Shown: positions 12,101-59,387 of the stretch, piece after piece
How positions within the stretch are numbered: the stretch's first letter is position 1
Layout: each line of letters opens with the position of its first letter
Source of the DNA: Panorpa germanica
Taxonomy: Eukaryota; Arthropoda; Insecta; Mecoptera; Panorpidae
Assembly (NCBI GenBank): GCA_963678705.1
Contig: OY783211.1
Coordinates: forward strand, 15,762,603-15,826,602
Direction of reading: 5' to 3'
DNA: 64,000 bases
Program-made: the position numbers and the translations under genes
Notes under the pieces: generated by a model
The model's database searches: none
The model's input: the letters and a program-made list of their open reading frames with translations, nothing else
Told to the model about the DNA's origin: nothing

Positions 12101-13304
12101 ATAATTTAGCAGTGGGATTTCTTAATTATATTATATTAAAAACTTTAATGAAATAATCAAAAGAAATATTTAAAAATGAAATTTCACATTAAATTATACT
12201 AATAGCAAACAAGAATAATTATATGAGCAGTGAAGACAATGTGGGAAAGAGAAGGAAATATAGAAACTTTAGAAGATAGAGCGAAACACCTATAGATGGA
12301 TCTTGTAGGGTATTTTGCTAAGTATTCAATTTCTTATTTGCAATAGTACAATTTGGAAAATACTTTATAGAAGCTAATTAATTACTATTATCTATTTAGT
12401 ATCAATTTGTGAGAAATTAATTTGATTAGTAATGTAAAGTATGATTTCACGTGACATCACGTGCAGTATAATGCAATATAAAATGTAACATAACTTATAG
12501 TGCATACTTTAGCGCCCTATTTCTGATTTCTGTCTGCTTCCTCTTTTCACAAACTTACCCAATACCAAATTTATAATATTGGTACCAAAAGTTTCATCAG
12601 ACTGCAATTGATATTGCATAAATATTTCTCAATATTTTGGTTAGTTTTTATTTTTTAAAAGCGTAACTTTTTTTGAAATTTAGTAAACTAAAAATTAATT
12701 CATGATTGAAATTATTAATAGCAATAAAACTTTGTCAATTCCTGTATTGTTTCAGGTTCTATCCAGGAACATTCAAATCCGTTGCAAATGCCACGGCATG
12801 TCTGGAAGCTGTCAACTGAAAACTTGCTGGAAAACAAGTCCAGAATTTCGTGTAGTCGGAAAAATCCTCAAAGACCGTTTCCGTTCCGCAGTGTTAGTGG
12901 AACAAACAAACATCAATAACGGAAGTCCATTCTTGACAAACAAAAGAACAAAAAATAAGAAGAAACGAATCAAATTTCTAGACAACCAAAATCGAAGAAG
13001 ACGTGGTCAAAATTCAGGAAGAAAATCTAAAAAAGTTAAAATGGAGGAAACCCTTTTGTATTATCAAAGATCTCCTAGTTTCTGCGAGAGGGATCTATCA
13101 ACGGGGATTCTGGGAACGTCTGGAAGGACTTGTACACGTGGCAATGAAACTAGGACTGACACGTGTGATTCATTATGTTGTGGACGTGGTTATGACGTCA
13201 TCAAACAAGTGACGGTTGATCAGTGTCATTGTAAGTTTAATTGGTGTTGCACCGTGGAATGTCAGGAATGTGTCAATGAGAGGTGGATTAGCGTGTGTAA
13301 ATAA
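8225..13304 (+). CDS. Wnt10: Wnt10-type secreted Wnt ligand, 3' part (three exons)
   Basis: Coding exons are 8225-8407, 9252-9400 and 12756-13304, with AG/GT borders and matching phases; together they give 292 residues. The gene enters the window mid-protein: a GGT codon split by the preceding intron leads into [14 protein letters not shown], the family's G-x-R-E-(S/T)-A-F site, so the N-terminal exons lie upstream. Exon 2 carries [13 protein letters not shown]. Exon 3 has the [10 protein letters not shown] motif with the serine that is lipid-modified in Wnts, then the cysteine-rich C-terminus with [16 protein letters not shown] and a final WISVCK. The SPSFCERD and WISVCK signatures fit Wnt10 better than Wnt6 or Wnt1. 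A basic linker of about 40 residues rich in K, R and N (coded near 12,930-13,040) separates the two halves of exon 3. The product is a secreted Frizzled ligand. Intron 1 holds an antisense LINE 3' end, and intron 2 is 3.36 kb. Confidence 0.92.
8575..9230 (-). mobile_element. 5'-truncated LINE (family B) 3' end, antisense in Wnt10 intron 1
   Basis: On the minus strand, sequence matching 20,443-21,115 runs from about 9230 down to the 3' end near 8575. It ends with a small perfect hairpin (TGCC-AAAT-GGCA, 8592-8603) and an A-rich tail. Broken minus-strand frames resemble the C-terminal tail of LINE ORF2. A (TC)n run at 9073-9098 has expanded inside it. The element is reversed relative to Wnt10, so it adds no sense-strand poly(A) signal. 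Confidence 0.75.
9073..9098. repeat. (TC)n microsatellite
   Basis: About 13 uninterrupted TC units lie inside the antisense LINE copy in Wnt10 intron 1. Confidence 0.95.
9401..12755 (+). other. Wnt10 intron 2 (3.36 kb)
   Basis: The intron runs from a GTTAGT donor after exon 2 to a TTGTTTCAG acceptor before exon 3. Apart from short T and (TA)n runs near 12,018-12,042, nothing was recognised in it: no open frame with family signatures, no repeat shared with the rest of the window. Confidence 0.7.
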
Positions 13305-57768: not shown

Positions 57769-59387
57769 CTACTTGACTTCTTTAACTTGGAGACCTGAAA
57801 CAATAATAAAAATATTATTAGAAAAGGAAAATTATTTATAAGGGTGAAATAAATAGAATTTTAATATTACTAGAATATTATACTATAATTTTTAACTCGC
57901 TGTTTTTAGTTCATAATTGTAATTTTGAACATGTGAAATCATGCGACTTAATATACATTATTTTGTAACAATTACTAATATTTATTTAATATACATTATT
58001 GTATTTAATATAATTAATTTTATTTCTTTATATTTGACAAGCAGAACACTTACATTTTAAGTTAAAACCTTAAATTAACACTAAAACTTTGATTAGGAAT
58101 AGGGGGCTTTAGAATGCTGATGTTAAAAAGATTATCGAATAAAAAAAATTCGAAGCATTGTTCAAATAACGATAGATCGCCGGTGACTAACGCTTAAAAC
58201 AACAAGTTGTGCCGTATAAATCTGCGACACAATGAAAAGGCTTTGTCTCTATAATTCTTTCATAGTGTTAATAGGAGCAAATAAGGTAATATTAATTTTA
58301 GTAGATTTTATGGCTCTTACTCAACTCGTAACTTGAACAACTATAGCTATTATACTGTATCCTTCCTAATTTGAAAAATGGTATGCAAGAAGTCTTGTAA
58401 AGAACAAAAACCATGCTTTAACTACTATAACTGCAAAAATTACAATAGCACATCGATATTAGCCTTTCAGGATAGTGCATTTATTAATTTCACAATAGGA
58501 GCTCAGTCGAATAACTAGCCAAATAAGAAAATGCCACATGGTATTGTAGTAATCGATATAAATACAGAAAAAAAATAAAGTTTTCACAAAATTGTCGCTG
58601 TTAATTATATAACATTGCGTACATCAAAAGTACGCACTGAATTTAACTTTCAGCATTTGCTTTCACAGTTATAAACGCCGCATCTATTATAGAACCTAGA
58701 CGCGGAGCTGGAACTGTGATAAATGGTAAATAATACATCATTTAAAATACCTGGAGGTAAAGATTGTTTTAGTTTTTCAGCCTTCTCCTTGTCTGTGATA
58801 ACCAATGTGTATAAGAACCTGGAGCAACGGACCTTGAATTTGGTGTTTTCAGGATTCTTCTTTATCTTAACAGCTAGAATAATAGTTTAAAATTAATAAC
58901 TTATAACCTCAAATTTATTTAAGTAAAAAGTTGTAAAAAGATTTTGTTGCTAGCGATACTGGCAATGTATACATAACTGGTACACATTGAGGTAAGATGC
59001 CGCCTTTACTCTCACAGTAACAAACGCCGAATATATTATTAATAAGACATATTCGGTAAGGAAACTGTGTTTAATTAATAAACATTAAGTAAATAATAAA
59101 CAAGTACATGTGCATACTAATATCTATAACTACAACAAATAAACGATAAGAAACTTACATTTGGCGTCCTTCCTCCTCGCTTTCAGAAGGAAATCCTTGA
59201 TTTCTTTAATTTCTCGTGGCTAGAAAAATAAAACAAAAAATAAGGTTAGAATTTAAAAAAAACATGTTATGAATAAAATATTTTAATTAATTGTTTTAGG
59301 TAATGTAAGCATAAGTTATTAACTAAAAAGCAGGAAATACAATTAAAATAATTAATGCAACGCAAAATAGTTTAGCAAACTCACCAT
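57769..59387 (-). CDS. RpL38: Ribosomal protein L38 (eL38), 70 aa
   Basis: Minus-strand coding exons in order are 59387-59385 (the ATG alone), 59219-59159, 58873-58751 and 57794-57769. The protein reads [20 protein letters not shown], then [40 protein letters not shown] and [10 protein letters not shown], which is full-length eL38. It is a 60S subunit protein. The ATG is the last codon of its exon, which also holds the end of the 5' UTR (to 59,421). A further leader exon at about 59,620-59,590 begins with a pyrimidine tract (CTTTTTCTTTTTCC), a 5' TOP motif that couples translation to TOR signalling. Introns 2 and 3 carry H/ACA snoRNA-like structures, and intron 3 also carries a short TIR element. 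The gene converges on the death-domain gene. Confidence 0.97.
57871..58107. mobile_element. Short TIR element (family 3), in RpL38 intron 3
   Basis: The interior aligns with 13,793-13,985 in the same orientation (TTTTGAACATGTGAAATCATG and TTAAATTAACACTAAAAC). The right end GATTAGGAATAGGGGG matches the family end, and the left end is eroded. Confidence 0.7.
58590..58722 (-). ncRNA. H/ACA-type snoRNA candidate in RpL38 intron 3
   Basis: On the minus strand, hairpin 1 has a lower stem CACAGTT/AACTGTG, an open pocket (CCAGCT against CGTTTAT) and an upper stem CCGCGTCTA/TAGATGCGG with one G-U pair. A box H-type AAAGCA follows at once. Hairpin 2 has an outer stem GCTG/CAGC and a perfect inner stem TGCGTAC/GTACGCA around a pocket. 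An ACA box lies one base after the outer stem, three bases from the inferred 3' end. The length, about 133 nt, fits the class. It lies about 30 bases inside the intron, in the sense direction of its host ribosomal protein gene, which is the usual place for such RNAs. Confidence 0.78.
58942..59073 (-). ncRNA. H/ACA-type snoRNA candidate in RpL38 intron 2
   Basis: On the minus strand, hairpin 1 has a lower stem CACAGT/ACTGTG, a pocket (TTCCTTA against CGTTTGT) and a perfect 8-bp upper stem CCGAATAT/ATATTCGG. Box H reads AGAGTA. Hairpin 2 has an inner stem AATGTGTA/TATACATT with one G-U pair, a short outer stem GGCG/CGCT, and ACA four bases later. The right arm of hairpin 1 (CGGCGTTTGTTACTGTGA) is nearly the same as in the intron 3 RNA (CGGCGTTTATAACTGTGA), so the two look like paralogues with different left pocket arms. 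Confidence 0.72.

Follow-up and report, generated by a model that had tools for sequence, protein, structure and literature searches.

Two paralogous box H/ACA-type RNAs in neighbouring introns of RpL38 of Panorpa germanica, one with a putative guide for a conserved large-subunit rRNA uridine

If two structured RNAs lie in neighbouring introns of one gene, did they arise from a single RNA, and do both still address the same target? This question is raised by the RpL38 gene of Panorpa germanica, which was analysed within a stretch of 64,000 nucleotides of contig OY783211.1 (called 'the window' below). The coding region of RpL38 was located by its spliced translation on the minus strand, at 57769..59387. 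It consists of four coding exons (59385-59387, 59159-59219, 58751-58873 and 57769-57794, minus strand), is interrupted by introns of the GT-AG type, and yields a spliced product of 70 amino acids that matches Pfam Ribosomal_L38e (PF01781, E = 2.6e-37). The second coding intron (58874-59158) contains the RNA designated here 'RNA2', and the third (57795-58750) contains 'RNA1', located 29 nt past the 5' splice site. RpL38 belongs to the usual class of snoRNA host genes, and intronic snoRNAs are common in ribosomal protein genes; in Drosophila, 27 genes for cytoplasmic ribosomal proteins are reported to carry snoRNAs in their introns (PMC2246290). C/D-like boxes in the RpL38 introns amounted to one weak pair. 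In viral contigs, 98 pattern matches to RpL38 relatives were obtained, none of which was confirmed.

The sequence-only reading had described two-hairpin RNAs with a hinge box and an ACA in introns 2 and 3, and this description was borne out by folds, boxes and spacing. RNA1, of H/ACA type, spans 132 nt (58590..58721, minus strand) and was placed by its fold z-score, its boxes and a match to the SNORA69 family that stays below threshold; RNA2, its H/ACA-type paralog, spans 130 nt (58942..59071, minus strand) and was placed by paralogy, fold z-score and boxes. In H/ACA RNAs, box H (ANANNA) occupies the hinge, the ACA lies 3 nt from the 3' end, and the pocket lies 14 to 16 nt upstream of box H or of the ACA. 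The H boxes AAAGCA (RNA1, 58658..58663, minus strand) and AGAGUA (RNA2) both fit ANANNA, and each is found 14 nt past the base of the upper stem of the first hairpin (HP1). The ACA boxes, recognised by their sequence, are at 58593..58595 in RNA1 and at 58945..58947 in RNA2 (both minus strand), and each is followed by 3 nt up to the inferred 3' end; since these ends were inferred from the ACA rule itself, it is the presence of the boxes alone that counts as a test. Pocket spacing is 14 nt in HP1 of both RNAs and 15 nt in the second hairpin (HP2) of RNA2, all within the rule. For HP2 of RNA1, counting the outer CA/UG pairs brings the distance to 17 nt, which the rule does not allow. The lower stem of RNA2 HP2 is weak, and the alignment is poor there.

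Folding of both segments, as the earlier reading had advised, gave stable structures. RNA1 folds at -43.9 kcal/mol (z = -5.61), with 0 of 200 shuffled sequences equally stable, and RNA2 at -32.0 kcal/mol (z = -2.84), with 1 of 200. Alternative boundaries for RNA2 gave z-scores of -3.08 (0/200) and -2.48 (1/200), while a segment with HP1 and part of HP2 reached just -1.65 (12/200). A fold scan was also conducted across RpL38, using 128 windows of 130 nt on both strands with 60 shuffles each: the highest rank went to the RNA1 window and the next to one that overlaps RNA1, and the RNA2 window came third, as the best outside the RNA1 region.

A covariance search of Rfam, which had likewise been suggested, gave a divided answer: sub-threshold H/ACA matches were found at RNA1, but the whole window had no match at the gathering thresholds. 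When 2,201 bases were searched under permissive filter settings, RNA1 was matched over its full length by SNORA69 (RF00265) with E = 3.2e-4 and 36.7 bits, against a gathering score of 47, and the same place was matched by two further H/ACA families, SNORA41 (28.0 bits, E = 0.068) and ceN36-1 (27.8 bits, E = 0.026). When the whole window was run by E-value, the SNORA69 match was lost to the filters and ceN36-1 alone was left at RNA1 (E = 0.77); at another place, that run also gave E = 0.085 for CrcZ, a bacterial family whose match is clearly spurious. For RNA2, no convincing match of its own was found in the gathering, permissive or whole-window runs, a weak match to a Tetrahymena H/ACA family at 58883-58995 (21.2 bits, E = 3.8) having boundaries that differ from those of RNA2. 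Since Rfam families are built one per snoRNA, sub-threshold scores count against those families and not against the H/ACA class. Rfam therefore backs the class of RNA1 moderately, and no particular family. RNA1 and RNA2 may represent paired H/ACA RNAs, hosted by introns of a ribosomal protein gene, that escape the Rfam thresholds.

SNORA69 itself was considered as an identity for RNA1 and rejected. Although sequence and structure are matched over the full length, the score falls short of the gathering value, and the arms of the RNA1 pocket differ from a guide for the SNORA69 target, which we take to be 5.8S Psi69. The SNORA69 model, run against this genome, gave no match, but the controls were equally silent.

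The relation between the two RNAs was assessed by comparing them with each other. Their first hairpins align with a local score of 25, and the whole RNAs with a score of 32, while the best of 5000 pairs of dinucleotide shuffles reached 17 and 23, respectively. The second hairpins, when compared alone, are not significantly similar (619 of 5000 shuffles), yet they align in line with the first ones. When 3,456 tiles of the window were compared with RNA1 HP1, RNA2 was the best place outside RNA1 and its complement (25), and the next place scored 19. On these sequence comparisons, we regard RNA1 and RNA2 as paralogs. The proposal of an intron-to-intron duplication is upheld by a similarity that 0 of 5000 shuffles reached.

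Compensated pairing had also been put forward, as an argument for selected RNA structure. Among 30 drawn stem pairs, 20 are unchanged, three have changed on both sides with pairing kept (two in the upper stem of HP1 and one in that of HP2), three have changed on one side and still pair, and four are non-standard in RNA2 (two of them terminal in the lower stem of HP1, the other two in the badly aligned lower stem of HP2). The part of the claim that stands is the pairing kept at three double changes, but this makes modest evidence of covariation, coming as it does from two paralogous sequences only. A covariance model made of the two sequences finds RNA1 and RNA2 in the window by construction; its fourth match scored 16.1 bits (E = 0.15). 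The third was the antisense of RNA1 (58661-58749, plus strand) at 23.3 bits, as is expected of a strong hairpin.

Could the two structures be chance hairpins, or copies of a mobile inverted repeat that entered two introns? In favour of this, the introns are rich in A and T, hairpins are frequent structures, and the covariance support from Rfam stays under the gathering scores. The fold and paralogy statistics argue against this explanation, as does the count of copies. In a DNA search of the 464-Mb genome (249 contigs), RNA1 and RNA2 each matched their own place only, and a 22-nt motif common to both was found exactly at these two places only. With two mismatches allowed, the motif occurred at three further places, compared to 4 hits for a reversed-pattern control; in these three loci (3,022 bases each), the two-sequence model gave at most 12.8 bits and no match at the motif. 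Neither DNA search retrieved the other RNA, so that any copy as distant as the two RNAs are from one another would be missed, and a missing match in this search is no proof of rarity. Overall, we consider chance hairpins or a mobile repeat to be very unlikely.

HP1 of RNA1 (58663..58719, minus strand) contains a pseudouridylation pocket with left arm UUCCAGCU and right arm CGUUU. With the canonical two unpaired bases, these arms pair by 7+5 bp to the large-subunit (LSU) rRNA sequence GGGAACG-U-GAGCUGGGU (around the pairing, GGGAACG-U-G-AGCUGGGU), so that matching the pocket to rRNA, another check that had been advised, led for RNA1 HP1 to a conserved LSU uridine. Conservation was examined on eight eukaryotic LSU stretches, taken from contaminated bacterial assemblies and fetched by a pattern in another part of the LSU. 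The site was unchanged, with 7+5 bp, in six of them (L012, L013, L015, L017, L018 and L019), two of which, L018 and L019, each have an additional, weaker 4+6 place for the guide. The two stretches where the site was absent (L014 and L016) are on contigs that end 469 and 607 nt past the anchor, compared to 578 to 1244 nt between anchor and site in the other six, and so both probably stop before the site. A further sequence, L011 from the edge of a viral contig, pairs by 7+5 bp as well, but there the fetch pattern itself contains most of the site. The predicted complementarity of RNA1 to this conserved site is new here, and it was established on the LSU of other eukaryotes.

A mammalian rRNA was used as a stand-in. 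It was checked against the human modification table in PMC6182160: five blocks agree with it at 126 of 126 residues, with offsets chosen for best fit, and the block that carries the site fits 45 of 45 tabulated modifications. A sixth block fits 5 of 5 at an evidently false offset and contains no Psi used here. On this stand-in, the LSU site was the best for RNA1 HP1. By its register, the target uridine would be human 28S Psi4491, which is listed as 91% modified (PMC6182160). Judged by energy, shuffled guides were as good in 0 of 200 cases in the canonical pocket, and in 4 of 200 when the pocket was moved by one stem pair. Twelve base pairs were reached by 24 of 1000 shuffled guides at any U, and by 2 of 1000 at a known site, that is, one of the 58 mapped positions among 61 tabulated human 28S Psi (18S Psi sites are outside that set). 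Under looser pocket rules, the best overall score of RNA1 was equalled by 9 of 40 shuffled guides, and by 0 of 40 at a known site.

HP2 of RNA1 had no strict target match, and none was significant by the looser rules, in the stand-in rRNAs and snRNAs or in the genome's own 5.8S and U2; a 9+3 bp place in 18S was dismissed, as 21 of 40 shuffled guides did as well. The CUUACC present in both RNA2 pockets is complementary to the GGUAAG of a conserved LSU stretch and of a 5' splice-site-like sequence, possibly by chance.

The RNA1 guide bears on another explanation, in which the hairpin arrays would regulate the splicing or expression of RpL38 without being snoRNAs. Both arrays are indeed in introns of one gene, RNA1 begins 29 nt from a 5' splice site, and intronic snoRNAs have been reported to affect the splicing of their host (PMC10324135). 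However, a role in splicing would not lead one to expect H/ACA boxes at correct spacing, a sub-threshold match to H/ACA families, or a pocket with canonical pairing to a known Psi site. We consider it very unlikely.

It is very probable, in our view, that RNA1 and RNA2 are intron-encoded box H/ACA snoRNAs derived from a duplication between neighbouring RpL38 introns, of which RNA1 guides the 4491-equivalent uridine and RNA2 has diverged. A single snoRNA would have been duplicated from one intron to the other. RNA1 would be expressed and freed from the spliced intron, presumably be bound by dyskerin-type H/ACA proteins into an RNP, and by its first pocket direct the pseudouridylation of the LSU uridine in GGGAACG-U-GAGCUGGGU (human 28S 4491), for which the insect's own rRNA would have to carry the equivalent site. 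RNA2 would be the diverged copy, still carrying the scaffold and right guide arm but a different left arm, and it would either serve another uridine or be an orphan.

The fate of RNA2 was examined by the same matching. At the 4491-equivalent site, RNA2 pairs by 0+5 bp, having retained the right arm but not the left, in agreement with the claim of the sequence-only reading that the guide sequence changed after duplication. With the left guide arm lost, the site should no longer be guided by RNA2. This pairing is consistent with a duplication after which the former address was lost, RNA1 presumably being the copy that kept the conserved one. Neither HP1 nor HP2 of RNA2 had a strict target match, and none was significant by looser rules, in the stand-in rRNAs and snRNAs or in the genome's own 5.8S and U2. 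A place at the LSU equivalent of human 4212 (7+7 bp, GU-rich, with an offset pocket) was rejected, as 21 of 200 shuffled guides equalled it and no human Psi is tabulated there.

A second site is human 28S 2826, the second-best overall for RNA2 HP1. The pairing there consists of 10 uninterrupted base pairs to the left and, to the right, 7 with a bulge, and it requires two base pairs of the upper stem to be opened. At known sites, 3 of 40 shuffled guides were equal, which is not significant. RNA2 might in that case have acquired the left arm UUUCCUUACC and now address LSU Psi human 2826 (AACAAUG-U-A-GGUAAGGGAA). Such a neofunctionalisation is unlikely on these figures, and it would, if true, place a parent guide and a retargeted daughter side by side in one gene.

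Alternatively, RNA1 may be a working snoRNA and RNA2 a decaying, non-functional duplicate. RNA2 lacks the left arm needed to guide the conserved site, no target was significant, the fold is weaker (z = -2.84) and the lower stem of HP2 is poor. Decay is harder to reconcile with an upper stem of HP1 that differs and yet pairs (two doubly changed pairs), with H and ACA boxes kept at the right spacing, and with 20 of 30 drawn pairs unchanged. We take decay of RNA2 to be a real possibility, though not the probable one. With RNA2 as a diverged H/ACA snoRNA, one guide half kept and the other replaced, the locus would offer a placed parent-daughter guide pair, and a simple case for the origin of new pseudouridylation sites.

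The 4491-equivalent site has known guides. Chicken 28S-3976, guided from a 5' hairpin, is listed together with snR37 and SNORA82/ACA10 (PMC2653536); by the 3875/4390 offset in the same paper, chicken 3976 would correspond to human 4491. Yeast snR37 is listed as one of the guides around the peptidyl transferase centre (PMC1766470). RNA1 resembles SNORA82/ACA10 (human), snR37 (yeast) and GGgACA30 (chicken) in that its 5' hairpin is complementary to the same 28S site, but it lies in another host gene and has no Rfam match to them. In Drosophila, there are presumably several snoRNA:Psi28S isoforms for a 28S site located 31 nt before the next Psi, as is the case here.

The mode of origin has a precedent as well. 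Duplication of snoRNAs in cis, between introns of one host gene, is described in chicken, with guiding altered or lost in some copies (PMC2653536). The vertebrate cases share with the present pair the intragenic duplication and the kept structure, while the host here is RpL38 of an insect. In a mosquito study, the method is stated to have recovered C/D-box RNAs only and no H/ACA RNAs (PMC4300560). The pair was not recognised among the matches listed for RpL38-intron snoRNAs and insect snoRNAs, at the level of titles and the first lines of abstracts, which is no proof of its being unpublished. As far as these tests go, RNA1 and RNA2 are a new pair within a known class: the mechanism and the duplication mode are already known, and a change of address is ordinary in such RNAs.

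Some observations were made on other RNAs of this genome. Its own 5.8S and U2 yielded nothing convincing for the guides. On U2, in comparisons run without control, RNA2 HP1 pairs by 5+5 bp at one position with an offset, and RNA1 HP1 by 6+6 bp at a neighbouring position with two stem pairs opened. Several copies of the 5.8S rRNA gene (L002-L009) lie on one contig with long AT-rich flanks, and an exact anchor for the 3' end of 18S was absent from the readable part upstream of these copies; lower-scoring 5.8S copies are present on other contigs. U2-like matches number 27 at E <= 0.001, and six of them, equal in score, are spread out along a single contig. In the window itself, an open frame at 12702-13304 on the plus strand codes for the C-terminal portion of a Wnt protein (E = 1.4e-53 to Pfam wnt, over residues 18-200).
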